A stretch of 64,000 nucleotides of DNA from Micromonospora sp. Llam0 (GTDB lineage Bacteria; Actinomycetota; Actinomycetes; Mycobacteriales; Micromonosporaceae). The DNA is taken from NCBI RefSeq assembly GCF_003751085.1, contig NZ_RJJY01000001.1, forward strand, positions 2,728,001 through 2,792,000, given 5' to 3'. The translations under genes and the position numbers were made by a program. Shown here in pieces: positions 17,262 to 45,236 of this stretch (the stretch's first letter is position 1; every line of letters starts with the position of its first letter). Under the pieces are notes generated by a model. The model made no database searches and was not told the origin of the DNA. It saw nothing but the letters and a program-made list of their open reading frames with translations.

Positions 17262-17278
17262 GGTTCGGCTACCGGACT
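17262..17278. promoter_or_regulatory. Island palindrome before the hydratase operon
   Basis: Sequence GGTTCGGCTACCGGACT, matching the island motif GGTCCG-N5-CGGACC in the half-sites GGTTCG / CGGACT. It is 63 bases upstream of the hydratase start and just after the IclR 2 stop. Proposed IclR-type operator; inference from recurrence. Confidence 0.55.
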
Positions 17279-17286
17279 GGTGATTG

Positions 17287-18111
17287 TCAGGCAGCCACAC
17301 CGGGTAGCCGGGCGACACACGCGTCAACGGCTCGGCTGATGAAGGCGGTGGCCGCCCGCATCTGTGGAAGCAGCCGGCCGATGATCAGCCGGTTGGTGGG
17401 CAGGGTGACCGAGACCGAGGCGTACACCATGCCGTACGGATCGACGAGCGGCACGGCGAGGGTGCTGTAGCCGACCAGCATCTCCTCCAACTCGACCGCG
17501 TACCCGTGCTGCCGTACGTCGAGCAGCTGCGCCCGCAGCGCCTCAACGGTGGCCACGCTGCGCGTCGTCGGCCGGACCAGGCCCTGCCGGTCGAAGGCGG
17601 CGAAGGCCTTTGGCGCGTCCGGGCGCAGGGCGAGGAAGAGCTTGCCGGAGGCCGAGCAACTGGCAGGCAGGCGGGCACCGACCTCGGAGTAGGTGAGCAC
17701 GTCCGCAGCCCCGGCGATCTTCTCCAGGAACATGACGTGCGTGCCGTCCGGGACGACGAGGTGCACCGTGGCGCGGGTCGCCGCGTACAGGTCGACCAGG
17801 GCGGGCCGCGACACCCGGCGCAGGATCGCCGACGCCGGGACGCGCTGGCCCAGCTCGAAGACCCTCAGCCCGAGCTGGTAGCTGCTGCCGACGCGCTCAA
17901 GCAGGCCCCAGTGGACCAGCTCCTGGGCGAGCCGGTAGCATGTCGCCTTCGACACCCCGGAGCGCTGACTCAGCTCGGTCAGCCCGAGCCGGATGGCACC
18001 CGCGCCGAAGGCCGCGAGCAGTAGCTGAGTCTTACCTAGGACGGACTTCGGGCAGCCGGTCTCGTCGTCGATCTCGGTGCCGGGCGGAATCTCGATCGCG
18101 GGGTCGGACAC
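17287..18111 (-). CDS. IclR family regulator 2
   Basis: 274 residues from the GTG at 18111, which has GAGGAG five bases ahead. The frame is open far upstream, but those residues belong to the antisense of the aldehyde dehydrogenase. The recognition helix [20 protein letters not shown] is almost the same as in IclR 3. The effector domain contains [20 protein letters not shown]. It sits between the hydratase operon (same strand) and the divergent aldehyde dehydrogenase, with a perfect copy of the palindrome in the divergent gap. It is the best candidate, with IclR 3, to bind that motif. Confidence 0.87.
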   Translation of the reverse strand: MSDPAIEIPPGTEIDDETGCPKSVLGKTQLLLAAFGAGAIRLGLTELSQRSGVSKATCYRLAQELVHWGLLERVGSSYQLGLRVFELGQRVPASAILRRVSRPALVDLYAATRATVHLVVPDGTHVMFLEKIAGAADVLTYSEVGARLPASCSASGKLFLALRPDAPKAFAAFDRQGLVRPTTRSVATVEALRAQLLDVRQHGYAVELEEMLVGYSTLAVPLVDPYGMVYASVSVTLPTNRLIIGRLLPQMRAATAFISRAVDACVARLPGVAA

Positions 18112-18224
18112 AACGACTCCTCGCACTAGGAGTGGATCTAGATCCCTAGAATAACTCTGGGTAATGACGCCGGGCCTGAGCCGTCCGGCAGAACTTTCTG
18201 CACGAACGGATCCCGACCCTGGCC

Positions 18225-18241
18225 GGTCCGGTGACCGGACC
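18225..18241. promoter_or_regulatory. Island palindrome, perfect copy
   Basis: GGTCCGGTGACCGGACC is a perfect inverted repeat apart from the central base. It lies between the IclR 2 start (18111) and the divergent aldehyde dehydrogenase start (18313). It is the best match to the motif repeated through the island, and probably the operator for both genes. Confidence 0.65.
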
Positions 18242-18312
18242 GGGCTGGTTGCCGACCGTCGAGCAAAGCAATCACTCTCGGTATTCCCGACACCCGTGAC
18301 GCGAGGAGTGCC

Positions 18313-19812
18313 ATGACCACAGATCCGGTGCTGGAGAGATTCCGTCCCGGTGCGGACTACCGGATGTTCATCGGCGGCGACTGGATCGCCGCCTCGGACT
18401 CCTTCGAGGCCGTCGATCCGAGTCTGGGCACGTCGTGGGCGGCGATCGGCAACGGCACCGCAGCCGACGTCGAGACCGCCGTCGCGGCAGCCCGCAAAGC
18501 CCTGCTCGGATGGCGTCGGTCCAGCCCCTCGACCCGGCAGGCGATCCTGGCCGCGATCGCCGACCGGATCGAGGAGAACGCCCCACTGTTCGCCCGGCTG
18601 CTGCCGACCGAGAACGGCCGGCCGGTACGCGAGGTCGGCATCGCCGACGTGCCGGCCAGCGCGGCGATCTACCGCTACTACGCCGGGCTGGCCCGCTCGC
18701 ACCGCGGCGACCAGATCCCGGTGGAGGACCCGGACAGCCTGATCTACACCGTGCGGGAGCCGCTGGGCGTGATCGCGGCGATCCTGCCGTGGAACTCTCC
18801 GCTGATCACCACGGCCAACAAGCTCGCGCCGGCCCTGGCATGCGGGAACACCGTGGTGCTCAAGCCCAGCGAGTTCGCCTCGGCAAGCGTTCTCGAGTTC
18901 GTCACGCTGATCGCCGACCTGCTGCCGCCGGGCGTGGTCAACGTGGTTACCGGCTTCGGTGCCGGAGTCGGCTCGGCGCTGGTCGGGCACCCGGACGTGG
19001 CGAAGGTGACGCTCACCGGCGGCGGTCCGACCGCTCGGGCGGTGATGGCGACCGCGGCCGGGGCGCTCACCCCGACGGCCATGGAACTGGGCGGCAAGAG
19101 CGCGATGATCGTGGCCGAGGATGCCGACCTCGGCCGGGCGGTCGCCGACGCCGCCCTCGGCATCTACCTGGCCAACGGCGAGGCGTGCATCGCGTCGTCG
19201 CGACTGCTGCTGCACGAGGGCATCGCGGTCGAGTTCCTCGACCGGCTCGCCGCGTTGGCCCGCTCGATCGTGGTCGGCGACGCGCTCGACCCGGCGACCC
19301 AGGTCGGCCCGATGGTGTCCCGGCCGCACTTCGAACGGGTGCTCGGCCATGTGCGCAAGGCCCGCGAGGAGGGCGTACGCGTGCTGGCCGGCGACGAGGA
19401 CCTCGGGCTCGCACCGGTCAACGAGAAGGGATTCTTCCTACGGCCGACACTGCTGCACGACCCGTCCGGCGCCGCCGACGTGGTGACCAGCGAGGTGTTC
19501 GGCCCGGTCACGGTCGCGGAGACCTTCGTCGACTACGACGAGGCCGTCCTGCGCGCCAACGCGACCCGGTACGGGTTGGCGGCCGGCGTGTGGACCACCG
19601 ATCTCGCGCGGGCACACCGGATCGCCGGTAGCCTCCAGGCCGGGATCGTCTGGGTGAACAAGTGGTTCGACCTGCCGGCCGGCGCGCCGATGGGCGGGGT
19701 GAAGGACAGCGGCTTCGGCCGGGAACTGTCCTGGGAGACGATGCTGGAGTACAGCGCCCCGAAGACGATCAACATCGACCTCGGCGCTCCACGGTTCCCG
19801 CTCTGGGGCTGA
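18313..19812 (+). CDS. Aldehyde dehydrogenase 1
   Basis: 499 residues of the NAD(P)-dependent aldehyde dehydrogenase superfamily. Motifs: the PWNSPLITTANKLAPALACG cofactor segment, catalytic Glu in TAMELGGKSA and catalytic Cys in NGEACIASSR. The C-terminus KDSGFGRELSWETMLEYSAP resembles enzymes acting on aromatic or alkyl aldehydes. GAGGAG is five bases before ATG 18313. It is transcribed alone, away from IclR 2, with a strong terminator after it. Likely substrate: the aldehyde made by the GMC oxidoreductases of the island (inference). Confidence 0.9.
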   Translation: MTTDPVLERFRPGADYRMFIGGDWIAASDSFEAVDPSLGTSWAAIGNGTAADVETAVAAARKALLGWRRSSPSTRQAILAAIADRIEENAPLFARLLPTENGRPVREVGIADVPASAAIYRYYAGLARSHRGDQIPVEDPDSLIYTVREPLGVIAAILPWNSPLITTANKLAPALACGNTVVLKPSEFASASVLEFVTLIADLLPPGVVNVVTGFGAGVGSALVGHPDVAKVTLTGGGPTARAVMATAAGALTPTAMELGGKSAMIVAEDADLGRAVADAALGIYLANGEACIASSRLLLHEGIAVEFLDRLAALARSIVVGDALDPATQVGPMVSRPHFERVLGHVRKAREEGVRVLAGDEDLGLAPVNEKGFFLRPTLLHDPSGAADVVTSEVFGPVTVAETFVDYDEAVLRANATRYGLAAGVWTTDLARAHRIAGSLQAGIVWVNKWFDLPAGAPMGGVKDSGFGRELSWETMLEYSAPKTINIDLGAPRFPLWG

Positions 19813-19865: not shown

Positions 19866-20894
19866 TCACTTCACGCTCACCGGGATGTTCGCCAGGGTGT
19901 AGCCACGCTCGGCGGGCTCCTTGTAGTCGGCGATGTTGGACTTGTCCCAGTACTTCGCCGTCACGACGTAGTTCTTGCTGCTCGTACCCTTCTTGGCATC
20001 GTCGATCGCCTTCAGCACGCACATGCCGGTGGCGTACGCGTCCGGGTCCCAGGTGCCGGTCAGCCGGCCCTGCTTGATCGCCTCGATCGCGTCCGAGTCG
20101 CCGTTGGCGCCCTGGATGATCACGCCCTCACTGGTGCCATCGGAGATCATCAATCCAGCCTGCTGCGCCGAGGTCGAGGCACCGAGCGCGGTCGCGTCGT
20201 TGTACGCCCACACCGCGTCGACGTCCTTGTACTTGGTGAACAGGTCGGCGGTCAGCGCCGCCGCCTCGGCCGAGGTGTCCTTGGTGTTGTCGGTCTGGTT
20301 GACGATGGTCAGCCCGGCCGCCGTCGCCGCATCGCTGAAGCACTTGACGTTCTGCTGGATCGACGGCACCGGCGGACCGCCCATCACGATCACCTTGCCG
20401 CCCGGGCGTGCCGTGGCGATCTGCTTGGCCGCCTGCTTGAACGGCGCGTCCTCGCTGTCGCAGAGATTGAAGCCCCACCACACGGTCGAGGTGACGTTCT
20501 GGCCGGTCGAGTTGACCCCGATGACCGGGATGTTGGCGTCCTTCGCCCGGGCGTACGCGCCCTCCATGGCGCCCGCGTCGAGTGCCCACAGGCCGATTCC
20601 GGCGACGTTCTGCTGGATCATGGTCTGCACGTTGGACACCTGCGCGTCGGGCGAGAGGTTCGCGTCCACGACGCTCACGGTCCAGCCGAGTTCCTTCGCG
20701 GCGAGATTGAGGCCATCGGTGAGCAGCGCCTGGCTCGGTTGGGAGGCGACCGGGCTGGAGTAGCCGATCTTCAGCCCGCTCGTGCCACCGGGCGACTCGG
20801 GGTCGTCGGCATCGCCGCAGGCGGCGGTGACGGCCAGGACAGCGACGGCGCCAAGGGCGATCACGGGGGTCAGTTTCCGTCGGGAAATGCGCAT
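19866..20894 (-). CDS. ABC transporter substrate-binding lipoprotein (ribose/PBP1 type)
   Basis: 342 residues. Signal peptide with lipobox (VIALGAVAVLAVTAACGDAD, lipidated Cys near residue 26), then a type 1 periplasmic-binding fold (GLKIGYSSPVASQPSQALLT, GIGLWALDAGAMEGAYARAK, VDAVWAYNDATALGASTSAQ). GGAGG precedes ATG 20894. It belongs to the same unit as the ATPase, permease and GMC oxidoreductase upstream. Ribose-type systems are also used for aromatic and other non-sugar solutes, so the context suggests import of the island substrate. It is the last gene, and the terminator at 19822-19851 follows. Confidence 0.88.
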   Translation of the reverse strand: MRISRRKLTPVIALGAVAVLAVTAACGDADDPESPGGTSGLKIGYSSPVASQPSQALLTDGLNLAAKELGWTVSVVDANLSPDAQVSNVQTMIQQNVAGIGLWALDAGAMEGAYARAKDANIPVIGVNSTGQNVTSTVWWGFNLCDSEDAPFKQAAKQIATARPGGKVIVMGGPPVPSIQQNVKCFSDAATAAGLTIVNQTDNTKDTSAEAAALTADLFTKYKDVDAVWAYNDATALGASTSAQQAGLMISDGTSEGVIIQGANGDSDAIEAIKQGRLTGTWDPDAYATGMCVLKAIDDAKKGTSSKNYVVTAKYWDKSNIADYKEPAERGYTLANIPVSVK

Positions 20895-20949
20895 GGTTGT
20901 ACCTCCAGAGGGGTGCAGATCGCCGTGCTGCCGGATCGGCCCGGCACCA

Positions 20950-22923
20950 TCAGCGCGGTGAGGCAAAGTCGGTGGTGACTGGTCGGCCGGTCAAGGTCGG
21001 CGTCATGGACCGGACCAGGGCGGACGCGGTCCGCTCGGCCAGCGCCATGACAGTGATCATCGGATTGACGCCGGGCGCGGTCGGCAGCGCGGATGCGTCA
21101 CCGATCCAGACCCCAGCGGTGTCGTGCAACTGGCCCCAGCCGTCGGCCACCGAGGTGGCCGGGTCGGCACCGAGCCGGCAGGAGCCCATCTGGTGGGCCG
21201 AGAAAGCGGTGTGGTCGCCGATCGGCGAGTCGGCCAGCCGGCTCAGATACGCCTCGAAGTCCTCGCCGCGTCGCCAACGCTTGTCACTCCAATGGAAGGT
21301 GAAGATCTCGATGGCCCCGGCCGCACGGTGCATGCGGGCCAGTTCGGTATGCGCGCGGACGGCGATCTCGTGGTCGACCGGGTCGTCGAGGTTCCAGTGC
21401 ACCGCCGCCCGGCCGTCGGCGTCCAGGTACACCTGCCCGCTGCCGTGGTCGTGCGACACGCCGTGCCAGGTGGCGTAGTAAGGCAGGTTCCGTAACTGGT
21501 CGCGGGTGGTCCGGCCGTCCACGAACGGCGACTGGCCGGCCCATGTGCCGGGGTTGAGGGCCAGGCTCTCCACCAGGAACCCGCCGCCCCTCACGACCTG
21601 GGTCAGGTCGAAGCTGACCGCCGACTGGATCTGGCCGTGCCAGGCCTGGATCGGCTCCTCGTACCGGCCGGTGACGATCCACGCGGGGTGCAGGGTCAGG
21701 TGACGGCCGACGGCGGGGCCGCCGATGCCCGAGCGCAGCAGCACCGCAGGCGACTCGATGCCACCGGCGGCCAGCACGACGGTCCGAGCGCCGACGGTGA
21801 GCGCGCACGGTCCGGTATCGGTGGCGGCGGTCGCCTCGACGCCGGTGGCCCGCCCGCCCGCGGTGGTGATCCGGTCGACGTGGGCACCGGTGACGATGCG
21901 GGCGCCGGCGTCCACCGCGTCCCGCAGGTACGTGTGCAGCGTCGACCGCTTGCTGCCCTGCTGGCACCCGGCGTTGCAGTAGCCGCAGAGCCCGGAGTCG
22001 TCGTCCGGTGCCGCGTTGCGGGGCAGCCGCTCGTGACGGTAACCCAGCGATGCCAGCCCGGTGATCATCGCCCGGGTGTTGGCGTTGTACGTGGTGGCGT
22101 CAGTGTTCACCCCGATCCGGTCCCAGACCAGGTCGGTGAACCTGTCGAAGTCCGGCCCGTCCAGGCCGGTGAGCCCCTGTTCGGTCCACAACTCCCGGAT
22201 GTGCTGCGGGGTACGCAGACAGACCATCGAGTTGATCACTGTGCCGCCGCCAAGGGTGGCCCCGGCCAGCAGACCCATCTGCCCGGACGTCGACCACATC
22301 GAGCCGCCGCGCAGGAACATTGCCGCGCCGAGCGAGTCGATCTGCCGGAAGTCGGCCTCGTTGCGGTATTGCGCGGCCTCGAGCACCAGCACGGAGAGCC
22401 CGGCCTGGGCGGCCCGCGCGGCGACGATCGAGCCGCCCGCCCCGGACCCGATCACCACGACATCCGCGTCCAGGCTCGCCGTGCCGGCCGGCAGCGGCAG
22501 CACGGGCAGTGTTTTCGGGGTGTTCGGCGGCGCGCTGCCCGGGCCCGGGTAGCCCAGCGCCGGCCAGGTCGGGTTGACGCCGCTGTCGTCGACCGCACCG
22601 ACGAAGGTCGCCAGGGTCATCGCCTTGAGCTGGCGCACGGCCAACCGCAGCCGCATCGACTCGTCCGCCACCGCCCGCAGTGTGGCGGTGCGAGTCTCGA
22701 GCGACGCTTGCGCGAACGCCGGCCCGAGTCTGGTCACCAGGTCGGCGACCGCACCGCGGGTGAGCGCGTCGAGCGAACCCACCGCAGTGGCGACAGCCGC
22801 GTCGATGCCGCGAGCCGCCGCACCGTCACGGTAGTAGGTGACCGTGGCCTCGTCGGCGCCGTCGGGGGCAGTCAGCGACGGCGCGAACGTGTCGCACACG
22901 GCGCGGACGATCTCGGTGGTCAT
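20950..22923 (-). CDS. GMC oxidoreductase 1 (long-chain-alcohol-oxidase-like)
   Basis: 657 residues. Residues 1-~130 are the helical N-terminal domain seen in plant and bacterial FAO-type alcohol oxidases (IVRAVCDTFAPSLTAPDGAD). The FAD fold is VVVIGSGAGGSIVAARAAQA near 155. Next come the GMC signature GGGTVINSMVCLRTPQHIRE, a cysteine-rich CGYCNAGCQQGSK and the C-terminal His/Asn pair region SAHQMGSCRLGADPATSVAD with GVNPMITVMAL. It would oxidise an alcohol to the aldehyde. ATG 22923 overlaps the permease stop, so the oxidase is embedded in the importer operon. It is paralogous to the second GMC gene at 26557. Confidence 0.88.
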   Translation of the reverse strand: MTTEIVRAVCDTFAPSLTAPDGADEATVTYYRDGAAARGIDAAVATAVGSLDALTRGAVADLVTRLGPAFAQASLETRTATLRAVADESMRLRLAVRQLKAMTLATFVGAVDDSGVNPTWPALGYPGPGSAPPNTPKTLPVLPLPAGTASLDADVVVIGSGAGGSIVAARAAQAGLSVLVLEAAQYRNEADFRQIDSLGAAMFLRGGSMWSTSGQMGLLAGATLGGGTVINSMVCLRTPQHIRELWTEQGLTGLDGPDFDRFTDLVWDRIGVNTDATTYNANTRAMITGLASLGYRHERLPRNAAPDDDSGLCGYCNAGCQQGSKRSTLHTYLRDAVDAGARIVTGAHVDRITTAGGRATGVEATAATDTGPCALTVGARTVVLAAGGIESPAVLLRSGIGGPAVGRHLTLHPAWIVTGRYEEPIQAWHGQIQSAVSFDLTQVVRGGGFLVESLALNPGTWAGQSPFVDGRTTRDQLRNLPYYATWHGVSHDHGSGQVYLDADGRAAVHWNLDDPVDHEIAVRAHTELARMHRAAGAIEIFTFHWSDKRWRRGEDFEAYLSRLADSPIGDHTAFSAHQMGSCRLGADPATSVADGWGQLHDTAGVWIGDASALPTAPGVNPMITVMALAERTASALVRSMTPTLTGRPVTTDFASPR

Positions 22924-24008
22924 GCGGTCTCCGTCTCTCGCGCTGTGGCCGGCTTCCTGGTCCGGTTGAACCTGAGCCAGCCGCGGTCGCGGGCGACGCC
23001 GAGCGTCACCGCGAGGATGAGCACCACGCCGTTGACCGTGCCCCGCCAGAAGGTGGACACGTCGCTGAGCGTCAGCCCGTTCTGGATCACGCCGAGAAAC
23101 AGCACGCCCAGCACCGTGCCGCCAACCCCGCCCTCACCGCCGGTGTACGAGGTGCCGCCGATCAGCACCGCGGCCACGACCGTGAGCAGCAGGGTCGAGT
23201 CGACGCCGGGACCGGCGCCGGTGAGCCGGCCGACCTGGATCAGGCTGGCGACCGCCGCGGCCAGGCCGGCGATCAGGAACACGCTGAGGGTGGTCCGGGC
23301 GACGTTGACACCGTTGAGCCGGGCCGCTTCCCGGTTCGAACCGAGGGCGTACACGCTGCGCCCGAATGTGGTGTAGCGCAACGCCAGCGCGGCGACGACC
23401 ACCAGCACCACGTCGAAGATCAACAGGTACGGAACTCCGCCCACGCCGCCGTTGGTGATCTTGTAGATCGGTTGGAAACCGGGCATCGAGAACACGTTGA
23501 TCGTCCTGCCCTGGGTCATCACCAGCGCCGCGCTCGCGAAGATCGAGAGCGTGCCGAGGGTGACGACCAAGAACGAGACCTTCACGTACGCGATGAGCAC
23601 CCCGTTGATCACGCCCAGCAACAGGCCCACGAGCAACGCCCCGGCGACCGCGGTCAGGGCACCCTGGCCGTGCTGCAGCAGCAGGCCGTACGTCATGCCG
23701 GTGACCGCCGCCGCCGAGGCGGTGGAGAGGTCGAGCGCGCCCGAGATGATCACGAAGGTCGCGCCCACCGCCAGCACCAGGATGACGCTGTTGCTGGCCA
23801 CGATATTCGTGATGTTTCCCCAGGTGGGAAAGATTGGCTGGGTGATGCTCAGGTAGAGGCAGAGCAGGATCAGGCCGGCCAGCACGCCGGTGCTCCGGGC
23901 GGAGGCCCGCCACAGACTCGTCAGCCGGCCGGTGGCGCCCGCCGGCCGGTGGGCCGGCGCCGGCGCGGTCACCGGCTCGTCCGGACGGGTCGTGGTGTCA
24001 TGGCTCAT
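22920..24008 (-). CDS. ABC transporter permease (RbsC-like)
   Basis: 362 residues with about nine or ten hydrophobic helices (e.g. LILLCLYLSITQPIFPTWGN, SVILVLAVGATFVIISGALD) and the BPD-transp-2 signatures ISGALDLSTASAAAVTG and LIGGTSYTGGEGGVGGTVLG. It forms the channel with the RbsA-like ATPase. Four-base overlaps link it to the ATPase upstream and to GMC oxidoreductase 1 downstream. Confidence 0.9.
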   Translation of the reverse strand: MSHDTTTRPDEPVTAPAPAHRPAGATGRLTSLWRASARSTGVLAGLILLCLYLSITQPIFPTWGNITNIVASNSVILVLAVGATFVIISGALDLSTASAAAVTGMTYGLLLQHGQGALTAVAGALLVGLLLGVINGVLIAYVKVSFLVVTLGTLSIFASAALVMTQGRTINVFSMPGFQPIYKITNGGVGGVPYLLIFDVVLVVVAALALRYTTFGRSVYALGSNREAARLNGVNVARTTLSVFLIAGLAAAVASLIQVGRLTGAGPGVDSTLLLTVVAAVLIGGTSYTGGEGGVGGTVLGVLFLGVIQNGLTLSDVSTFWRGTVNGVVLILAVTLGVARDRGWLRFNRTRKPATARETETA

Positions 24009-25531
24009 GCCGCTTCTCCGGATTCGTCGCCGTGGAGGTGGCCACTGACCGCGATCGCGTTCAGCGCCTGTTCCGTGAGGTCGTCGCCGTCGACCTCGCC
24101 GTGCACCCGGCCCTGGAAACAGACCAGCACCCGGTCGGCCAGGCCGATCAACTCGGGCAGCTCGGAACTGACGATCACGAGAGCCGCTCCGCTCTCAGCC
24201 AGCCGCTGCAACAGGGCGTAGATCTGACTTTTCGAGCCGACGTCCACCCCGCGGGTCGGCTCGCTGAGCACATACACCGCACAGCCGAGCGCGAAGATGC
24301 GGCCCAGAACCACCTTCTGCTGGTTGCCGCCGGAAAGCTGGGTGACCAGCTTGGCCGGCGAGGACGTCCGCACGCCGTACTCGTCGATCGCCGCACGGAC
24401 CCGGCGCCGCTCCGCCCGGCTGCGCACCACACCGAACCGGGACAGGGTCGGCAGCCAGGTCAGCGTCATGTTGTGGGCGACGCTGCGGGTCGGCAGCAGA
24501 GCGGCACGCTTGCGGTCGTCGGGAACCAGACCGATACCGGCCCGCAGCGAGCGGCGCGGATCGCCCAGCACGACCCGCTCACCGTTGACCCGGACCTGGC
24601 CGGTGGCCGCGATGGCCCCACCCAGCGCCATGGCGATCTCGGCCTTGCCGGAGCCGACCAGGCCGGCGATGCCGACGATCTCGCCGCTGCGCACCTGGAA
24701 CGACGTCGGTGCCAGCGAGCCGTCGACCGAGGCCAGGTCCCGGACCTCAAGCACGACCTCGCCCGGAGTCGCCGTCCGGCTGCCGTAGTAGTCGTTGAGT
24801 TCGCGGCCGACCATCATGTGCACGAGCCGCGACTCCGGCGTCTCCGGCAGCGGCACACGGCCGACCATCCGGCCGTCCCGCAGCACCGCCGCGGCACCCG
24901 CCGCCGCGTACAGCTCCGGCATCCGGTGCGAGATCATCAGCACCGCGACGCCGCGCAGGGCCTGTTCCCGGACCAGTTCCAGCAGGCGCGCGGTGGCACT
25001 CTCGGAGAGCGAACTGGTCGCCTCGTCGAGGATGAGCAGCCGGGCCCGCGCGGAGATCGCACGGGCGATCTCGACCTCCTGCTGCAGTTCCACCGACAGA
25101 TCGCCGACCCGCGCCCCCACGTCGACGTGCACGCTGAGCGCGTCCAACTCTTCCCGCGCCCTGGCGTGCACCGTGGGCCAGTCGACGATCCCGCCGCGTC
25201 GCGGCAGCCGCCCCAGGAAGACATTCTCGGCGACGGTCAGGTGCGGGGCCAGCGTCAGTTCCTGGCTGATCATCACGATGCCGAGTCGCAGCGCGGTGGC
25301 CGGGTTGGCGATGACCATGGGCTGGCCGTCGACCAGGACCGTCCCACCGTCCGGCTGCTCCACCCCACCAATGATCTTCGAGAGGGTCGACTTGCCGGAG
25401 CCGTTCTCCCCCGTCAGCGCCAACACCTCGCCCGGGCGGACGGTCAGGCTGACATCGTCGAGGGCCAGCACGCCGGGATAGCGCTTGGAAACGCCACGAA
25501 CCTCAACCACAGGCGCCGCACCTTCGTTCAT
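24005..25531 (-). CDS. ABC transporter ATP-binding protein, two-domain (RbsA-like)
   Basis: 508 residues with two nucleotide-binding domains. The first has Walker A GENGSGKST and the ABC signature region LSVELQQEVEIARAISARAR; the second has the degenerate Walker A GLVGSGKAE and LSGGNQQKVVLGRIFALGCA, as usual for RbsA/XylG. ATG 25531 is preferred over 25567 because AGGGAGG lies directly ahead. It is the first gene of the importer operon. Two palindromes (25627 and 25654) occupy the divergent promoter region shared with the hydrolase on the other strand. Confidence 0.9.
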   Translation of the reverse strand: MNEGAAPVVEVRGVSKRYPGVLALDDVSLTVRPGEVLALTGENGSGKSTLSKIIGGVEQPDGGTVLVDGQPMVIANPATALRLGIVMISQELTLAPHLTVAENVFLGRLPRRGGIVDWPTVHARAREELDALSVHVDVGARVGDLSVELQQEVEIARAISARARLLILDEATSSLSESATARLLELVREQALRGVAVLMISHRMPELYAAAGAAAVLRDGRMVGRVPLPETPESRLVHMMVGRELNDYYGSRTATPGEVVLEVRDLASVDGSLAPTSFQVRSGEIVGIAGLVGSGKAEIAMALGGAIAATGQVRVNGERVVLGDPRRSLRAGIGLVPDDRKRAALLPTRSVAHNMTLTWLPTLSRFGVVRSRAERRRVRAAIDEYGVRTSSPAKLVTQLSGGNQQKVVLGRIFALGCAVYVLSEPTRGVDVGSKSQIYALLQRLAESGAALVIVSSELPELIGLADRVLVCFQGRVHGEVDGDDLTEQALNAIAVSGHLHGDESGEAA

Positions 25532-25626
25532 CCGCGTACCTCCCTGGGGCTGGGCCGGCGAGTTCATCCGCCGGCTACCGGATTGGCGTCACCCTGGCAC
25601 CGGGAGGTTGCCGCAAGTAGCAACCC

Positions 25627-36713: not shown

Positions 36714-37049
36714 GTGCCGTACGTGATCGGTAAAGACTGCGTCGATGTCAACGACCGCGCCTGCATGGATATGTGCCCGGTCGACTGCATCTACGTCGGC
36801 GACCGGAAGAGCTACATCAACGCGGCCGAGTGCATCGACTGCGGCGCCTGCGAACCGGAGTGCCCGGTCGACGCGATCTTCGTAGACCGTTCGGCTCGTG
36901 GGAACGAGCTCAAGACGTTCTTCGTCGAGGACTCCCGGAACTTCTTTCAGATCACCCTGCCGGGCCGGAACGCCCCGATCGGTGCCCCCGGCGGTGCCGG
37001 CAAGGTCGGCGACATCGGCGTGGACACGCCGTACGTCAGCGACCTGTGA
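36714..37049 (+). CDS. 7Fe ferredoxin (FdxA type)
   Basis: 111 residues, GTG start with AAGGAG ahead. Cysteines: NDRACMDMCPVDCIYVGD then AAECIDCGACEPECPVDAIF, giving a [3Fe-4S] plus [4Fe-4S] set, and the FdxA-type C-terminal extension. It is 18 bases after the reductase gene. Low-potential bacterial ferredoxins are uncommon donors to Rieske oxygenases, which more often use [2Fe-2S] ferredoxins. It overlaps the convergent enoyl-CoA hydratase by 14 bases. Confidence 0.92.
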   Translation: MPYVIGKDCVDVNDRACMDMCPVDCIYVGDRKSYINAAECIDCGACEPECPVDAIFVDRSARGNELKTFFVEDSRNFFQITLPGRNAPIGAPGGAGKVGDIGVDTPYVSDL

Positions 37050-37797: not shown

Positions 37798-37799
37798 GT

Positions 37800-39965
37800 T
37801 CACTCCAGGACGGTCGGGCCGGCGGTCACGCCGCCGAGCAGTTCTTCGAGTACTTCTGCGGTGTGCTCACCCAGCAGCGGCGCTGGACGGTCGATTCGGG
37901 CCGGGGTACGCGACAGCCGCACCACGGTCCCCTCGTGCCGGACCTCGCCGGCGAGCGGATGACGCAGCACCGGGTAGAAGCCGCGTGCGGCAAGATGCCG
38001 ATCGTGTTCGGTGAGGTCCTCGCCGGTCGCGACCACGGCCGCGGCGACACCCGCACGCTGCAACAGCTCGGCGGTTTCGGCCGCGTCCCGGGTACGGGTC
38101 CAGGTCCCGAGTGCGGCGTCCAAGTGGTCCTCATGCCGCTTGCGTTCGGTCAGGCGGAGCTCGGGATCCAAACCGACAAGATCCGCGAGGGTACGCCACT
38201 GAGCGTCGTCCAGGACGGCGATGGCGATCCACCGGTCCTCGCCGCACGCGGGATAGACGCCGTGCGGCGCCCGGTCCGCGTGACGGTTCGGCCGCTCCGC
38301 TGTGGCACCAATCTCCGGCGCGCCCAGCTGCTGTTCGAGCAGCGCCGGCCCCATCGCCGACGCCATCGCCTCCAGCTGCGACAGATCCACAAAGCCGCCC
38401 CGCCCTTCGGACCGCATCGCCACCACCGCGAGCACGGCCGCGTTGGCGGCCACCATGTCCCCCAACCCGAACGTGAGCCCCTGCGGGTCGCCGCCCGGAT
38501 CGGCGGTCTCGTGGGTGAGCCCCGACATGGCCGCCAGGGTGTCGGCGAAGGTGACCGCGTTGCGCCACGGCCCGCTCTGCCCGACGCCGGACATCGACAC
38601 CGCGACCAGCCCCGGGTTTATACGGGCCAGCGACGCGTGATCGAGCCCCCAGCGGGCCATCGTCCCCGGGCTGTAGTTGTCGATGATCACATCGCACTCG
38701 GCGGCGAGCCGCCGGACGATTTCCTGCCCCTCAACGAGGCGCATGTTGACCGCGATGCTGCGCTTGCCGCGGTTGAAGTTGAGGAAGTAGCCGCCGTCGT
38801 CGACACCGGCGTCCGGCCGCAGCCGCATCGAGGGCTGGAACCGCGTCGGGTCCTGTCGGTGCCGCGACTCCACCTTGATCACGTCAGCGCCGTGCTCGGC
38901 GAGTTGGCGCGTCGCGTACGGCCCGGCCAGCACCCAGGTCAGGTCGAGTACCCGCAGCCCGCTCAGCGGCTGCATCCGGTTCGCACCAACGCAGGGCCGG
39001 ACCGCCGGGCTTGCCGGCAGCCTGACCGCGTAGCCCACGTCGGTGTAGCCGTCCACCTCGATGAAGAAGTCCCGGTCCCGCAGTTGCGGGTTGTCGGCCA
39101 GCCGGTCGGCGCGGCTCACCTCGGCCCACGGCAGCGCCCGCCGTCGGCCCTCCGCACCCAGCTCGGCAGCGGTACGTCGGGCAGCGAATCGGGCCACCAC
39201 GGCGTCCACGTGCGGGCGGGAGTTCCACCGGAACACCGGCTCGGCGTACTTCTCGTCGGTCAGGTCCTCAGCCTCACCGGTCTCGGACATCCAGGCCAAC
39301 AGGTCCGTCCACATCCGGTTGCTGCCCGAATAGCCACCACCGACGTGCCCGTCGGCGGCCCGGAAGACGCGGTGCGCCACGTGCGCGTAGATCCCGCCGC
39401 TTCGCCGCGGAAACGCCCCGGCGTGGATCCACGAGATCGCGCCGGTCTCCAGAGTCGCGGCCACGGCCTCCTGCGCCGACACCTCGATGAGCTGCCCGCC
39501 GCCGGCCAGCAGGCCCAGATACGCGCCGATCGCCGCGTGCACACCCGCGAGCTGCAGCGCTGACTCACGCGGCGGTGGTTTCGGTGGCCCGTCGGCGCGA
39601 CCGCCCAGCCAGGTCATACCACCCGCAGAGGCGGCGATCAGGTCGTCGGCGAGCCAGTCCCGGCGCGGTCCGGTCAGCCCGAACGGCGTGACCACCACGT
39701 ACACGAGATCCGGCCAGCGCGAGACGCCGTCCGGCGTAAGCCCGCGCAGCTTGTGCCGCGGCCCACTCTCCACCACGACGTCCACCTCGGCCGCCAACGA
39801 GTCGAGGTCGACGTCGGCCACTGTCCTGGTGCCCGCGTACCAGTGCAGCTCGTAGGCCCGGCTGCCGGGCGGACCGGCCGGGACGCGGACCACGTCGGCG
39901 CCGAGACCCATCAGGGCACGGATCGCCGCCGCGCCGAGTTCGTCGGTCAGGTCAAGAACTCGCAC
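37800..39965 (-). CDS. Two-domain CaiB/BaiF (class III) CoA-transferase
   Basis: 721 residues, two CaiB/BaiF-like halves. Half 1 (1-~330) is short and has Glu at the catalytic-Asp position (LIEVSAQEAVAATLE). Half 2 (~335-721) is complete, with RVLDLTWVLAGPYATRQLAE and Asp in FVDLSQLEAMASAMGPALLE. Class III CoA-transferases move CoA through an aspartyl-CoA ester, so only half 2 seems classical. GTG start at 39965 with GGAGAGGA ahead, overlapping the CoA ligase by 19 bases. It would activate an acid of the pathway using a CoA donor. Confidence 0.87.
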   Translation of the reverse strand: MRVLDLTDELGAAAIRALMGLGADVVRVPAGPPGSRAYELHWYAGTRTVADVDLDSLAAEVDVVVESGPRHKLRGLTPDGVSRWPDLVYVVVTPFGLTGPRRDWLADDLIAASAGGMTWLGGRADGPPKPPPRESALQLAGVHAAIGAYLGLLAGGGQLIEVSAQEAVAATLETGAISWIHAGAFPRRSGGIYAHVAHRVFRAADGHVGGGYSGSNRMWTDLLAWMSETGEAEDLTDEKYAEPVFRWNSRPHVDAVVARFAARRTAAELGAEGRRRALPWAEVSRADRLADNPQLRDRDFFIEVDGYTDVGYAVRLPASPAVRPCVGANRMQPLSGLRVLDLTWVLAGPYATRQLAEHGADVIKVESRHRQDPTRFQPSMRLRPDAGVDDGGYFLNFNRGKRSIAVNMRLVEGQEIVRRLAAECDVIIDNYSPGTMARWGLDHASLARINPGLVAVSMSGVGQSGPWRNAVTFADTLAAMSGLTHETADPGGDPQGLTFGLGDMVAANAAVLAVVAMRSEGRGGFVDLSQLEAMASAMGPALLEQQLGAPEIGATAERPNRHADRAPHGVYPACGEDRWIAIAVLDDAQWRTLADLVGLDPELRLTERKRHEDHLDAALGTWTRTRDAAETAELLQRAGVAAAVVATGEDLTEHDRHLAARGFYPVLRHPLAGEVRHEGTVVRLSRTPARIDRPAPLLGEHTAEVLEELLGGVTAGPTVLE

Positions 39966-41491
39966 GAAAGTTCCTCTCCAGCGTTGCGTCTGAGGTGTTC
40001 GAGGTCGGTCGCCACCGACAGCACGGCCGGGGCTCGCAGGGCGGGCTTGCTGACCTTGCTGGAGGCGTTGCGCGGCAGTTCGTCAAGGACTGCGACGTAA
40101 CGCGGCCAGGCATACCGGGGCAGCCGCTCGCGGCACCACGCGTGCACGTCCTGCGCGGTGACCCTGGGATCGGCCGGGACGACCGCGACCAGCAGGTCCT
40201 GCTCGGTGAACTCGGAATCGACCCCGACCGCCGCCGCCTCGCCGACGCCGGGCATCGCGGCGACGACCGCCTCGACGTCCCAGGCCGAGAGGTTCTCGCC
40301 GCGGCGACGCACCACGTCGTCGTGCCGGCCGCAGAAGGTCAACCGTCCGTCCGGGCCGAGCCGGCCGAGGTCGCCGGTGGCGATCCACTCCGGGACCGGG
40401 TCCGGCGCACCGCGGTAGCCGAGCGTACTGATGTGCGGGTGCCGCGCACGCACCGTGATCCTTCCGGTCGCACCGGAAGGCACAGACGCCCCCGTGGCGT
40501 CGCGCAGCTGAAGGTCGTACTCGGGCAGGGGGTGTCCGGCGGTGCCCGGCACCACGTCGCCGACCCGATTGGACGCGACATCGCCGAGTTCGGTGCAGGC
40601 GTACGCCTCGATCAGCTCCACCCCGAAGCGGTCCCGGAACCGCTCGGCCAGCCACTGTGGTGCCGGTCCGCCGTACGCCCGAGTCACTCGATGGTCCCGA
40701 TCCTGCGGATCGACCGGCGCACGCAGCAGGATCGCCGCGACCGCGCCCATGAAGTTGAACGCGGTGACCTGCTGCTCCCGGCACAGCGTCCAGAACGCGG
40801 AGGCGGAGAAACGGGGCACCGCTAGTAGCCGCGCACCGCTGACCAGCGCCGCGAACAGCCCGGTGTGCCGGATGTTGACGTGGTTCCAGGGGAACGCGTT
40901 GTAGAGCACGTCGTCCGGGCCGTAGGCCATCGAGTCGCTGACCCGCCGCGCGTGCCGCACCCCGGCGAAGTGCGGCAGGATCACGCCTTTCGGCCGTCCG
41001 GTCGTGCCCGAGGTGCTCAACACCACCGCCGGATCCCCTGGGCCGGGCAGCCGGCGCAACGGCCCCGCCGGTAGCTCGTCGAGGTCACCGGGGCCGCCGC
41101 CGTCGTCCACGGTACGGATCACCGGGGCGACCCTGGCCAACCCGGGATCGGCGGCCAAGGCGGCGGTTCCCAGCACGGCCATCCGGGCCCCGGCGGCACG
41201 CCACGCGCCCGGCGGTGTCCCCTCGGCCAGCGGCACCTCCACCAGCCCGGCCCGCGCCACGCCGGCCAGCACGTGCACCAGCGTCGGTCCCGGGCGCAGA
41301 CAGGTGACGACCGGATCGCCCGGGCGCAGACCGAGCCGCGCCGAGGCGAGCAGGCGAGCGATGCGTTCACTTTCCGCCGTCAGCGCGCCCGCGGGTACGT
41401 CCCGGTCCCCGAAGCGGGCCACGACCCGATCGGGTTCGCACCGGGCCAGGAGGTCGATCAGGGTTTCCGGCCGGTCCGCGACCCGGGTCAT
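39947..41491 (-). CDS. Acyl/aryl-CoA ligase (AMP-forming)
   Basis: 514 residues. AMP-binding signature VVLSTSGTTGRPKGVILPHF, adenylation motifs YGGPAPQWLAERFRDRFGVE, WIATGDLGRLGPDGRLTFCG and a C-terminal Lys in NASSKVSK, where the usual Gly-Lys is Ser-Lys. Though the frame is open through the upstream gene, ATG 41491 overlaps the dehydrogenase stop (ATGA) and gives a normal-length enzyme. It should convert a carboxylic acid of the pathway to its CoA ester. With the hydratase and aldehyde dehydrogenase beside it, the set resembles the feruloyl-CoA route (ligase, hydratase/lyase, aldehyde dehydrogenase); this is inference. Confidence 0.88.
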   Translation of the reverse strand: MTRVADRPETLIDLLARCEPDRVVARFGDRDVPAGALTAESERIARLLASARLGLRPGDPVVTCLRPGPTLVHVLAGVARAGLVEVPLAEGTPPGAWRAAGARMAVLGTAALAADPGLARVAPVIRTVDDGGGPGDLDELPAGPLRRLPGPGDPAVVLSTSGTTGRPKGVILPHFAGVRHARRVSDSMAYGPDDVLYNAFPWNHVNIRHTGLFAALVSGARLLAVPRFSASAFWTLCREQQVTAFNFMGAVAAILLRAPVDPQDRDHRVTRAYGGPAPQWLAERFRDRFGVELIEAYACTELGDVASNRVGDVVPGTAGHPLPEYDLQLRDATGASVPSGATGRITVRARHPHISTLGYRGAPDPVPEWIATGDLGRLGPDGRLTFCGRHDDVVRRRGENLSAWDVEAVVAAMPGVGEAAAVGVDSEFTEQDLLVAVVPADPRVTAQDVHAWCRERLPRYAWPRYVAVLDELPRNASSKVSKPALRAPAVLSVATDLEHLRRNAGEELSCEFLT

Positions 41492-42942
41492 CGGGCCAGG
41501 TTGACCCATACGCCCTTGGTCTCGGTGAACTCGTCGAGCGCGAAGGTGCCCATCTCGCGGCCCCAGCCGGACAGACCGAACCCGCCCCAGGGTGCGCCCG
41601 GATCGATCAGCGGCAACTGGTTGACGAAGACCGTACCGGCGTGGATCCGCGCGGCGAGCCGGTGCGCGGCGGTCAGGTCGTGGGTCCAGAGCACCGCGGC
41701 CAAGCCGTAGTCGGTGTCGTTGGCTCGGGCCACGACCTCGTCCTCGTCCTCGTAGCTGAAGATCGACAGGACCGGTCCGAAGATCTCCTCCCGGGCGATC
41801 GTCATGTCGTCGCGGACACCGGCGAACACGGTCGGGCTGAAGAAGTAGCCGTCGTCCAGGCCCCGCCCGGTGGCCCGGGTGCCGCCGGTGACCAGCTGGG
41901 CGCCCTGGGCCACGCCGCCGTCGACGTAGCCGGTCACCCGGTCCAGCTGCTCCTGGGAGACCAGTGGGCCGAGCACGGTGTCCGGCTCGATACCGGGCCC
42001 GATCTTGAGGGTCTGCGCGGCGGCTGCGATCTTCTCGGTGAACTCCGCGGCCCGCTTGGCGTCGACGTAGAAGCGGGTGTAGGCCCCGCACGCCTGCCCG
42101 GTGTTGAACAGTGCGCCCTGGAGGTTGCCGGTGACCGCGGCGTCGATGTCGGCGTCGCGGGTGATGATGCTCGGTGCCTTCCCGCCCAGCTCCAGGCCGA
42201 CCCGCTTGAGGTCGGCGGCGGCAGCGGCGGCGATCTGCTGACCGACCTCGGTCGAGCCGGTGAACGAGATCTTGGCGACGCCCCGGTGCGCGACCAGCGC
42301 CTTGCCCGCCTCGGGGCCGCCGGTCAGCACGTTGACCACACCGGCCGGGATCCCGGCCTCCAGGCATAGTCCGCCGAGCCGCAGCGTGCTCAGTGGTGTC
42401 TGCTCGGCCGGCTTCAGGACGACCGTGTTTCCGGTCGCCAGAGCGGGGGCGAGCTTCCACGCGGCGATCGCGAACGGGAAGTTCCACGGGGTGATCAGGC
42501 CGACTACGCCGAGCGGCTCGCGGCGGGTGTAGTGCAGGGTGTGCGGGACCGAGACCGACGACAACTTGCCCTCGATCTTGGTGGCCCAGCCCGCGTAGTA
42601 CCGGAACACCTGGGCGGCCAGCACTACGTTGACGCCGCTGGACATCGCGATCGGCTGGCCCTGGTCGTGAGTCTCCAGCTCGGCCAGCTCGGCGGCGTCC
42701 CGCTCGATCAGGTCGGCGACCTTCCAGAGCAGCCGTCCGCGGGCGTCCGGGGTCAGGTCCCGCCACGCCGGGTCCTCGAACGCGGCCCGCGCGGCGGCGA
42801 CCGCGGCATCCACGTCGGCGGCACTGGCCTCGGCGAAGCCGGCCAGCTCGGTTCCGGTCGCCGGGTCGTACGTCGTGCTGGTCCGCCCCGATGCCGCCGG
42901 AACCCACTCCCCGGCGATCAACAGTCGCTCCGCCTGCGTCAC
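41488..42942 (-). CDS. Aldehyde dehydrogenase 2
   Basis: 484 residues. Motifs PWNFPFAIAAWKLAPALATG, FTGSTEVGQQIA, catalytic Glu in GLELGGKAPS, and Cys in NTGQACGAYTR. The C-terminal GFGLSGWGREMGTFALDEFT matches betaine/phenylacetaldehyde-type enzymes. GTG 42942 with GGGAGG ahead. First gene of the four-gene CoA block (dehydrogenase, ligase, transferase, hydratase), transcribed from a region with palindrome half-sites. Confidence 0.9.
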   Translation of the reverse strand: MTQAERLLIAGEWVPAASGRTSTTYDPATGTELAGFAEASAADVDAAVAAARAAFEDPAWRDLTPDARGRLLWKVADLIERDAAELAELETHDQGQPIAMSSGVNVVLAAQVFRYYAGWATKIEGKLSSVSVPHTLHYTRREPLGVVGLITPWNFPFAIAAWKLAPALATGNTVVLKPAEQTPLSTLRLGGLCLEAGIPAGVVNVLTGGPEAGKALVAHRGVAKISFTGSTEVGQQIAAAAAADLKRVGLELGGKAPSIITRDADIDAAVTGNLQGALFNTGQACGAYTRFYVDAKRAAEFTEKIAAAAQTLKIGPGIEPDTVLGPLVSQEQLDRVTGYVDGGVAQGAQLVTGGTRATGRGLDDGYFFSPTVFAGVRDDMTIAREEIFGPVLSIFSYEDEDEVVARANDTDYGLAAVLWTHDLTAAHRLAARIHAGTVFVNQLPLIDPGAPWGGFGLSGWGREMGTFALDEFTETKGVWVNLAR

Positions 42943-43023
42943 GGTGCCCTCCCACTTCCACGGGCACGTCCACCGTGCCGCCGCTCGATCGTCGGCCCGG
43001 CCCGGTACCCGGTCAAAGCATCT

Positions 43024-43057
43024 GGACCACCCACCGGACCGGTCCGGTTCACCCTCG
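43024..43057. promoter_or_regulatory. Island palindrome-like sites before aldehyde dehydrogenase 2
   Basis: GGACCACCCACCGGACC (43024-43040) keeps the right half-site and spacing. GGTCCGGTTCACCCTCG (43041-43057) directly follows and keeps the left half, running into the last codons of the formamidase gene. Weaker than other copies, but placed 80-115 bases before the dehydrogenase start as expected. Confidence 0.45.
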
Positions 43058-45178
43058 GTTGAAGGGAAGCCGATCCTGGGTCAGGAAATGCTGAAGTACA
43101 TTCCTGGTCACCCGCGAGACGTCGTTTCCGCCGCCGTCCACCAGCAGCGAGCCGGACCAGGCGATGCTGGCGGTGGAGAAGACCGCACCCTGGCGGGGTT
43201 TCGGCTCCAGCACCAGGTCCGCGCGGACCTTGTCGCTTGTCGTCCCGTCGTAGCAGCCGTCCGGCAGCGTCACCTCGATCGGATCGAGGCCGTACGAGCG
43301 GCTGAACCCGGTAGCGGTGGCGAGGATGACGGCGTCGTGCGAGGTGCCGAGGGCGGGATCGGCCCGGTCGATCTCGACTCCCGCCGCGCCGGCACCATTG
43401 ACCATCGAGGCAAAGGCACCCAACTGCCCGCCGGGCAGCTCGGCCCCCTCGAAAACGAACGACCAGCGCGGATCCGCGACGTCGACGACGACGTCGTACG
43501 GGCGGTTGATGTCGAAGCCCTGGGACGCCATCCCGACGCCCACCAGCCGCTGCGGCGGGATCCCGCGGGTGCGCCACAGGCCGCCCAGTTCCCCGGTGGT
43601 CAGATGGTGCCACTCTCCGGGTTCGGGCTGCCACGCCCGGATCCCCGCAGTGCGCCGGATCTCGATGGTGTGCCCCTGCTCGGGATCGATGGAGGTCACC
43701 CAGTAGAAGCCGTTGCCGCCCAGGTACATCAACCGGCCCCCCTGGTCGAGGTAGGCGTGATAGGCGCGCAGCATCGCGGTCGTCGGGTACTCGGGGTGGC
43801 TGCCGGTCAGCACCACCCGGTAGGCCGAGAGCAGGTCGGCTCCGCCCTGGTGCACCTCCTCGTCGGTCACCACGTCGAACTCGTACCCCTGCTGGGTCAG
43901 CCAGGCAACGATGTGCAGGTCGGCGCTGAACTGGTGGGCCGAGGTGTCGCCGCCCGCGACGGCTGCCCAGCGGTGGTCGTGCCGCACGTTCGGCAGCGGC
44001 TTGCGGGACGACGCGAAGCAGACGCCGGTGCGGTCGGTGTGCACGTCGTAGAGGCTGCGTAACCCCGTGTTCAGGAGGTACGCGTCGTGCTTGTTGCCAC
44101 CGAACTCGGGTACGTCCAGCACGCCGACGCCGGTGAGGTAGTCGCGGGCGCCCGGGTCGGCCATCACGTGTTCGCAGCTGTACGCGAGATAGCTGAACGT
44201 GGGCAGCACGAGGAGCAGGGGCGCGGTCGGACGGAGGGGTGTGACCGCGAACGGCAACGTGTCCTCGGTGCCGTCGGCCGCGACCACCGCGACGCCGTAC
44301 ACGCCGCTGGGCAGGTCCGCGGGCAGGGTCAGGGTCAGGTCGTCCTGCCAGCGGGCGTCGTCGAGGTCGTCGTCGTGGAAATGAATGGTGTCGTAGGCCT
44401 GCGGCGCCAGCCGGGGATCCATGTCGTCTCCCGCACCGGCGTGCCCCAGGCAGGCACGCAGCGGAAAGTTGTGGCTGCGCCCGGCGAACGACGCGCCGAG
44501 CCGGTTGCCGATCCGCCGGGGCGTGCTCGTCGGCCCGAAGTCCCACTCCGCCAGGCCGTCCAGCACCGGCGACTCGATTCGGCCGTTGAAGAAACCGGTG
44601 AACCAGTCGCCGTCCGGACGGGCCGCGAAGACCAGTCCGGCAGCGTCGACCCGTCCGACCTCGGCGCGCAGTTCGACATCCCGCAGCTGTGGCGACGAGA
44701 TGACCACCCGGGCCGTTCCGTCCCCACCTATCGCCAGCGTCGCCCGATACCAGCGCTGGGGGTCGGCGGCTTCGCTGGACACGTCGTCGCCCAACACCCA
44801 CCGGCCGTCCTCGGCCAGCGTGAGATCGATGACCGTCGCGCCGTCATGGGTGATGGCCACCAGGGTCTGCGGGTGTGGGCACGGCAGCAGCGTCGGCCTG
44901 GCCCAGAAGCTCAGGCTCAGGTCTTCGCCGTCGAGCGGGGACTGGTCGATCTCGACGCAGGAGCCGGCCCGGATCGGCTGGACCCGGCCGGTGAACGCCC
45001 GCCCATCCAGGGCGGAGGGAACGTCCCGAATGTCGACGCCCGGCCCCAACGGGTGCGGATCGCCGTTTACGATCCGCACCAATCGTGCCGTGAAGGTCTC
45101 AGCGGTGGTGCTGAACCGCGCGTGCACCGTCTGGCCCGGCCGGTAGCTGAGACGATCGCTGTATCCGATGATGTTCAT
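43049..45178 (-). CDS. N,N-dimethylformamidase large-subunit-like hydrolase
   Basis: 709 residues from ATG 45178 (MNIIGYSDRLSYRPGQTVHA), with AGGTGG ahead. The first ~330 residues are two beta-rich lectin/LamG-like domains (SFWARPTLLPCPHPQTLVAI; FTGFFNGRIESPVLDGLAEW). The rest is the DMFA2 catalytic domain with LPTFSYLAYSCEHVMADPGA and GSHPEYPTTAMLRAYHAYLD near residue 460. As I recall, the enzyme from DMF degraders binds one iron through a Tyr and an H-x-E pair; the Tyr and HPE here fit. No small-subunit gene is nearby. Expected to cleave an amide of a small N-alkyl or acyl amide. The open frame continues upstream into a permease remnant, but an operator lies in that part, so 45178 is the true start. 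Confidence 0.82.
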   Translation of the reverse strand: MNIIGYSDRLSYRPGQTVHARFSTTAETFTARLVRIVNGDPHPLGPGVDIRDVPSALDGRAFTGRVQPIRAGSCVEIDQSPLDGEDLSLSFWARPTLLPCPHPQTLVAITHDGATVIDLTLAEDGRWVLGDDVSSEAADPQRWYRATLAIGGDGTARVVISSPQLRDVELRAEVGRVDAAGLVFAARPDGDWFTGFFNGRIESPVLDGLAEWDFGPTSTPRRIGNRLGASFAGRSHNFPLRACLGHAGAGDDMDPRLAPQAYDTIHFHDDDLDDARWQDDLTLTLPADLPSGVYGVAVVAADGTEDTLPFAVTPLRPTAPLLLVLPTFSYLAYSCEHVMADPGARDYLTGVGVLDVPEFGGNKHDAYLLNTGLRSLYDVHTDRTGVCFASSRKPLPNVRHDHRWAAVAGGDTSAHQFSADLHIVAWLTQQGYEFDVVTDEEVHQGGADLLSAYRVVLTGSHPEYPTTAMLRAYHAYLDQGGRLMYLGGNGFYWVTSIDPEQGHTIEIRRTAGIRAWQPEPGEWHHLTTGELGGLWRTRGIPPQRLVGVGMASQGFDINRPYDVVVDVADPRWSFVFEGAELPGGQLGAFASMVNGAGAAGVEIDRADPALGTSHDAVILATATGFSRSYGLDPIEVTLPDGCYDGTTSDKVRADLVLEPKPRQGAVFSTASIAWSGSLLVDGGGNDVSRVTRNVLQHFLTQDRLPFNRG

Positions 45179-45219
45179 AAGCCACCTTCCCGCCGTGGTC
45201 ATGGTCGGAGAAACGTCGC

Positions 45220-45236
45220 GGTCTGGTGACCGGACC
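45220..45236. promoter_or_regulatory. Island palindrome before the formamidase-like gene
   Basis: GGTCTGGTGACCGGACC, one mismatch from the perfect copy at 18225. It lies 42-58 bases upstream of ATG 45178. It places this hydrolase in the same regulon and marks the gap between the permease remnant and the hydrolase gene. Confidence 0.62.

Follow-up and report, generated by a model that had tools for sequence, protein, structure and literature searches.

A 64,000-nucleotide stretch of the genome of the actinomycete Micromonospora sp. Llam0 (the window) contains an island of catabolic operons, and copies of a 17-bp palindrome lie before them (Table 1). As judged by sequence comparison, an IclR-family regulator probably uses these palindromes as its operators; the best candidate is IclR3 (28476–29282), which would control the operons of the island together. 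An original prediction had tied these operons into a single regulon under IclR-type control, and our analysis supports it: other genomes have the motif at their corresponding operons, and it fits the consensus of the group-1 operators of the IclR family. The prediction is right in substance, and conservation of the motif across actinomycetes with a close relative of the island's Rieske oxygenase gene makes it stronger than was stated. The regulon is new and is of the well-known IclR type; among the papers listed in literature searches, none was evidently about it or the pathway.

The original prediction listed 12 sites close to GGTCCG-N5-CGGACC. We built a symmetrised 17-bp matrix from all 12 of these sites and used it to scan the window. 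The top 11 17-mers were 11 of the 12 sites. All 11 are intergenic, and intergenic DNA makes up 6% of the region from 10 to 48 kb (by our gene table). The site at 45220 is intergenic only if the dimethylformamidase-like gene begins at ATG 45202: it lies within a longer in-frame open reading frame, between that ATG and the end of homology to a permease fragment at 45242. When sites were left out of the matrix one at a time, the 11 sites ranked between 1 and 14. The remaining site, at 43041, keeps just one half of the palindrome and ranked 684, so we rejected it. We also rejected a candidate at position 13170, which has a matrix score of 10.4. When whole units were left out, every site scored from 13.5 to 23.5, and 0–10 places in every 400 kb of this genome score as well. 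The palindrome is longer than first written: it has an 8-1-8 form near GGTCCGGTNACCGGACC, which we represent by the strict pattern GKTYCGBTSAVCGRAMC. The centers of the sites are at -20 to -122 relative to the gene starts, and several are past -80.

No sites had been seen before the Nit operon, the amine oxidase gene, or the PARG gene. This is correct for the Nit operon (best upstream score of 9.8) and for PARG (1.1), but the copper amine oxidase gene is preceded by GGTCCGCTGAGCGGGCC at 13103–13119. With this addition, we have 12 sites.

We then considered how often the motif arises elsewhere in the genome, and the answer depends on how it is described. The bare pattern GGTCCG-N5-CGGACC is barely above background, and we rejected it as a descriptor: allowing up to three mismatches, the window has 175 copies, compared to 149 ± 13 in shuffled sequences, and allowing up to one mismatch, the genome has 309, compared to 217 for the reversed pattern. 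The refined motif, in contrast, is concentrated in the window. The strict pattern has just three exact matches in the 8.9-Mb genome, and all three are in the window. As the background for the matrix, we used 400 kb of evenly spaced samples from the rest of the same genome. Scores of 15 or above occur 11 times between 10 and 48 kb, always in intergenic DNA, versus 5 times (2 of them intergenic) in the 400-kb sample; symmetric matrices with permuted columns (500 draws) gave a mean of 0.04 and a maximum of 4. No matrix score was above 11 in the 20 kb on either side of the window. Because the motif is concentrated in the island and is near background in the sampled remainder of the genome, the regulon looks local.

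Some matches do lie outside the island. We scored 18 other places in the genome that were chosen by matches to the pattern or to a sequence-only covariance model (run over the genome, with 150 of 26,563 candidates scored). Around them, 19 scores above 13 were listed, of which 17 were inside called genes; the other two are C1:5237327 and L038:131. The intergenic matches in the background sample are C1:3519459 (20.0) and C1:2001681 (15.6). Two intergenic matches beyond the island stand out as strong and solitary, L010:19459 (20.0) and L024:5001 (20.3). Within the window, a transposase gene contains GGTCCGGCCAGCGGATC (56031–56047), and the identical 17-mer is found at at least four other places in the genome, among the matches listed; this is probably a repeat rather than an operator. 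Finally, copies of a related palindrome (AGTTCGCTAAGCGAAC, CGTTCGGTCAGCGAAC), at around 5000 and 6325 of L034 (C1:571649 and C1:572974), lie on either side of a gene near the IclR gene C1:565691, and these might perhaps be a second local IclR regulon.

To examine conservation, we began with the Rieske gene. Among 299 relatives searched, 9 were positive at E ≤ 1e-90, including Micromonospora sp. Llam0 itself. We also aligned five Rieske proteins and searched a genome collection with the result; this gave 191 relatives, and we used the best 80 (65–89% identity). We counted an upstream site if the matrix score was at least 13. By this threshold, 76 of the 80 Rieske genes have an upstream site, or 77 of 80 if we include L134, which has two sites and a miscalled gene start. 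As a control, we drew 4800 stretches of 300 bp at random from these loci, without excluding the true sites, and 4.5% of them contain a site. The 76 positive loci cover 23 of 25 genus-level labels. Genes within the operons lack upstream sites: LigB (0/77), M20 (0/78), the second alpha/beta hydrolase, aBH2 (0/77), enoyl-CoA hydratase (0/37), and ferredoxin (0/53). Of 49 spacings between sites upstream of the Rieske genes in these loci, 13 are 18–19 bp, and the others cluster near 38 and 59 bp.

The motif is also kept at other matching operons. Genomes G219 and G231 have sites before the hydratase operon, the IclR3 gene, and the coenzyme A (CoA) operon, even though the order of the operons has changed, and the hydratase operon of G336 has a site as well. 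The 17-mer at 43024 is found, identical but on the other strand, before the CoA ligase gene of Paractinoplanes deccanensis. Orthologs of the dimethylformamidase-like gene have a site 50–52 bp upstream in all four genomes that we read (two further relatives at 43% identity are outside this count). The divergent region between aldehyde dehydrogenase 1 and IclR2 shares its site in 3/3 genomes (G324, G366, and G350). Eight of the 80 loci contain an amine oxidase gene, and the best upstream scores for these are 12.1–19.7, with 4/8 at 13 or above. In Paractinoplanes ferrugineus (L107), a similar site lies 73 bp before an amine oxidase that is 88% identical, just past a TetR gene. In G314, the formamidase and amine oxidase genes are adjacent, on the same strand, behind a single site.

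As described by Suvorova and Gelfand (2021; PMC8222616), group-1 operators of the IclR family are 17-bp palindromes with the consensus GKTYCRYW3-4RYGRAMC; tandem sites 18–22 bp apart are common, most sites are at -20 to -80, and aromatic catabolism is a frequent target. That paper gives the MhpR operator as GGTGCACCTGGTGCACA. The island shares the 17-bp palindrome and the apparent target; three of its tandem spacings (18, 19, and 19 bp) lie in the published range, and the fourth (27 bp) lies outside it. All 12 of our sites match 13–15 of the 17 positions of GKTYCRYW3RYGRAMC, and just 24 of 20,000 random 17-mers match 13 or more. Also, a linked IclR gene co-occurs with the motif, as for group-1 operators. 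Unlike the operators described there, the sites in the island have GGT-11-ACC edges, their centers are mostly G/C instead of W, and three of them share one divergent region. The parts of that paper that we consulted do not mention the island's gene set.

Which regulator reads the sites? IclR3 contains HTH_IclR (47.4 bits) and IclR_C (111.5 bits), both above the cut-offs. The genome has at least 30 matches to HTH_IclR with E ≤ 0.001, three of them in the window (150 of 488 candidates were scored); the weaker matches may be other winged-helix proteins. In a set of 12 hand-picked genomes, IclR3 or its ortholog (79–82% identity) is present in all 8 genomes with a Rieske protein at 84% identity or above (Llam0 included). 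In the three genomes that lack the Rieske gene, no IclR exceeds 41% identity to IclR3, and the twelfth genome, G049, has a 72% Rieske protein and a 55% IclR. In a tree of 87 IclR proteins, IclR3 falls in a clade of 24 rows along with IclRs that are beside the Rieske operon. A site lies within 150 bp upstream for 15 of the 22 scored rows in this clade, versus 21 of the 82 scored rows overall. IclR1 and IclR2 are in a separate clade, in which four members also have an upstream site.

It is quite possible, if somewhat short of an even prospect, that IclR2 and IclR3 both read the sites, either sharing them or dividing them. Their recognition helices are similar (one of the pair is KASVYRLSQELV), as the original prediction noted, but the similarity is not exclusive to these two, as the helix of IclR1 is much alike. 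In 3/3 genomes, the IclR2 ortholog is divergent to aldehyde dehydrogenase 1 with a site between them, and loci of Amycolatopsis and Nonomuraea have both the IclR2 and IclR3 types next to the motif. On the other hand, IclR2 orthologs (74–76% identity) are found in only 3 of the 7 other genomes with a close Rieske gene. Four of the 8 close islands lack an IclR2 ortholog (best identity of 50% or less; of these, G231 and G336 are draft assemblies) and yet keep their sites, and G314 keeps the site at aldehyde dehydrogenase 1 without IclR2 alongside. Because both the co-occurrence and the tree favor IclR3 over IclR2, IclR3 is the parsimonious choice and the likeliest reader of the sites.

TetR proteins recognize palindromes of comparable length, and a TetR gene adjoins the amine oxidase gene here, is near it in Rhodococcus-type loci, and has a site before it in G314. 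Still, it is very unlikely that this TetR protein reads the palindrome: the motif carries the IclR consensus, just 9 of the 80 stretches have a TetR match, and none of those 9 TetR genes has an upstream site scoring 13 or above. That the sites are merely chance GC-rich palindromes chosen by eye would agree with the bare pattern hardly exceeding background, but is so strongly contradicted by the matrix ranks, the 400-kb enrichment, the permuted matrices, the strict-pattern counts, and the conservation in 77/80 loci that we consider it next to impossible.

Several observations weigh against a single regulon that is read by IclR3. Three of the 80 Rieske loci fall short of the threshold (12.7, 12.7, and 7.0). 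For distant Rieske homologs (55–62% identity), G139 and G062 have no site above 12.5 in 19–20 kb, the one site in G059 (12.6) lies apart from the Rieske gene, and the one in G021 (15.4) precedes its M20 gene; most Rieske relatives under about 62% identity have no such site. Sites scoring 13 or above are also rarer at the other units than at the Rieske gene: FAD reductase (37/53), ABC importer (4/6), copper amine oxidase (4/8), the first alpha/beta hydrolase, aBH1 (16/44), CaiB (15/52), AMP ligase (8/33), IclR3-type genes (17/73), hydratase (2/16), and aldehyde dehydrogenase 1 (1/12). These unit-head labels are best matches, and they include paralogs and operon-internal genes. Some loci with the motif have no IclR3-type gene in the stretch covered (e.g., L110, L122, and L133), and among 29 other loci with relatives of IclR3, just 6 have a score above 13. 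The strict pattern is matched in 86 of 250 genomes of the family (with 4 matches in G219, 5 in G231, and 6 in G336, all of which contain the island), so other regulators may use similar sites. Within the island, 25627 and 25654 are 27 bp apart, which is outside of the published range. Sites 17262 and 43024 have modest held-out scores (10 equally good places per 400 kb), although both are supported by relatives. Finally, no sigma-70 promoter turned up when the Rieske region was scanned, so the sign of control is a guess.

We propose that a dimer of IclR3 would bind each 17-bp site, and that sites 18–19 bp apart would hold a dimer of dimers on one face of the DNA. If there is a single effector, then a pathway intermediate would alter IclR3 and switch on all of the operons together. 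This would co-induce uptake (the ABC importer), side-chain oxidation (the amine oxidase, the GMC oxidoreductases, and the aldehyde dehydrogenases), ring hydroxylation (the Rieske oxygenase, reductase, and ferredoxin), meta-cleavage (LigB, the BphD-like hydrolases, hydratase, aldolase, and acetaldehyde dehydrogenase), and the CoA branch. Where IclR2 is present, it may read the same set of sites or an overlapping one. The sites in the Rieske/FAD reductase region are 69–107 bp before the Rieske ATG and 52–90 bp before the FAD reductase, and conserved blocks between the sites and the Rieske genes leave space for a promoter on either side. This placement might fit activation. The sites near IclR3 (-50 and -68), the hydrolase, and the formamidase, which together span -20 to -68, might instead fit repression, which for IclR3 would be self-repression.

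Table 1. Predicted operators, IclR genes, and island operons, in coordinates of the window.
Feature	Position	Strand	Context	Basis
Operator	17262–17278		Before hydratase–acetaldehyde dehydrogenase–aldolase operon; center -35 from GTG 17235	Rank 8; held-out score 13.5
Operator (perfect 8-1-8)	18225–18241		Between divergent IclR2 and aldehyde dehydrogenase 1	Position shared by G324, G366, G350
Operator	25627–25643		Divergent importer / hydrolase–GMC region	Matrix and held-out scores
Operator (second in region)	25654–25670		Importer / hydrolase–GMC region; 27 bp from 25627	Paired sites in L104, L105, L107, L108
Operator	29324–29340		Before IclR3; center -50	Matrix rank
Operator (tandem)	29342–29358		Before IclR3; center -68; 18 bp from 29324	Matrix rank
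Operator 1 of 3	35638–35654		Rieske / FAD reductase divergent region	Three sites, 19-bp steps, in G219 and G231
Operator 2 of 3	35657–35673		Rieske / FAD reductase divergent region	Matrix; G219 and G231
Operator 3 of 3	35676–35692		Rieske / FAD reductase divergent region	Matrix; G219 and G231
Operator	43024–43040		Before aldehyde dehydrogenase 2–CoA ligase–CoA transferase–enoyl-CoA hydratase operon; center -90	Rank 11
Operator	45220–45236		Before dimethylformamidase-like gene; center -26 from ATG 45202	Matrix rank; ortholog sites
Operator (not listed earlier)	13103–13119		Before copper amine oxidase; center -75; inside 3' end of TetR gene	Score 14.8
IclR3 (proposed main regulator)	28476–29282	-		HTH_IclR and IclR_C; co-occurrence
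IclR2 (possible second reader)	17287–18111	-		Helix-turn-helix match
IclR1 (paralog of IclR2, 49%)	13766–14500	+		
Aldolase, acetaldehyde dehydrogenase, hydratase operon	14484–17235	-		
Aldehyde dehydrogenase 1	18313–19812	+		
ABC importer (binding protein, permease, ATPase) and GMC oxidoreductase	19866–25567	-		
Alpha/beta hydrolase and GMC oxidoreductase	25682–28488	+		
Rieske oxygenase, LigB dioxygenase, M20 aminohydrolase-like protein, two BphD/HsaD-like hydrolases, dehydrogenase	29361–35577	-		
FAD reductase and 4Fe-4S ferredoxin	35736–37049	+		
Enoyl-CoA hydratase, CoA transferase III, CoA ligase, aldehyde dehydrogenase 2	37036–42942	-		
Dimethylformamidase-like gene	43049–45202	-		
Copper amine oxidase (newly counted into regulon)	11081–13036	-		

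The genes of the island were assigned by Pfam searches. The Rieske protein matches PF00355 and PF11723 (the Rieske center and the homotrimeric-type catalytic domain) above the cut-offs, and its nearest relative in the PDB is carbazole 1,9a-dioxygenase (E = 2.3e-45). The nearest PDB relatives of LigB, the M20 protein, and one of the hydrolases are 2,3-dihydroxyphenylpropionate dioxygenase, 5-nitroanthranilic acid aminohydrolase (E = 5.7e-22), and BphD, respectively. Together with the amine oxidase and the aldehyde dehydrogenases, these homologies suggest that the substrate is a nitrogen-bearing aromatic compound. That it is of the indole type, with cleavage of the ring-nitrogen bond, is a conjecture.

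The Mhp system, which acts on 3-hydroxyphenylpropionate, comprises an MhpB-like LigB enzyme, a meta-cleavage hydrolase, a hydratase, an aldolase, and an acetaldehyde dehydrogenase. The island shares all of these as well as an IclR regulator, but it also has the Rieske oxygenase, the M20 aminohydrolase-like protein, and a CoA branch, and it is spread over many operons. The carbazole (Car) pathway proceeds by extradiol cleavage followed by a C–C hydrolase. The island has predicted enzymes for both of these steps and a Rieske protein similar to carbazole dioxygenase, but it adds the M20 protein, the amine oxidase, the importer, and the CoA genes. We speculate, at rather low probability, that this is a widespread and undescribed pathway of actinomycetes in which a carbazole-type Rieske oxygenase would break the ring-nitrogen bond of an N-heteroaromatic acid or amine, indole-like or otherwise, the M20 aminohydrolase would free ammonia, LigB would open the ring, and two IclR paralogs would share one set of operators.

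At the right side of the island, 45242–45631 (minus strand) encodes the C-terminal 130 residues of a permease of about 480 residues, in frame into the formamidase reading frame. In Rhodococcus- and Mycolicibacterium-type loci, permeases close to the amine oxidase are 54–58% identical to this fragment. No further part of the permease was found in 45000–46100, and the right edge of the island may be a deletion junction. Further right, 48050–57000 contains two reverse transcriptases, one of which carries a group II maturase domain, as well as several transposases. To the left, 3098–10001 (minus strand) encodes two nitrilases, a GNAT/AIR-synthase protein, a radical SAM protein, an amidohydrolase, and an FAD protein, which we take to resemble a Nit1C-type cluster; no operator scoring 13 or above was found before the starts that we checked in this cluster (4779 and 10303).

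As originally predicted, the operator marks the bounds of a catabolic system that gene order would leave as separate operons. The operons would be joined as proposed, except that the amine oxidase must be added and the site at 43041 removed. The operator can also be used to find missing members of the system in other genomes, as similar sites mark the Rieske operon in many families of actinomycetes. With a candidate regulator and a set of promoters now named, the substrate becomes approachable, since a reporter driven by the Rieske promoter should respond to it.

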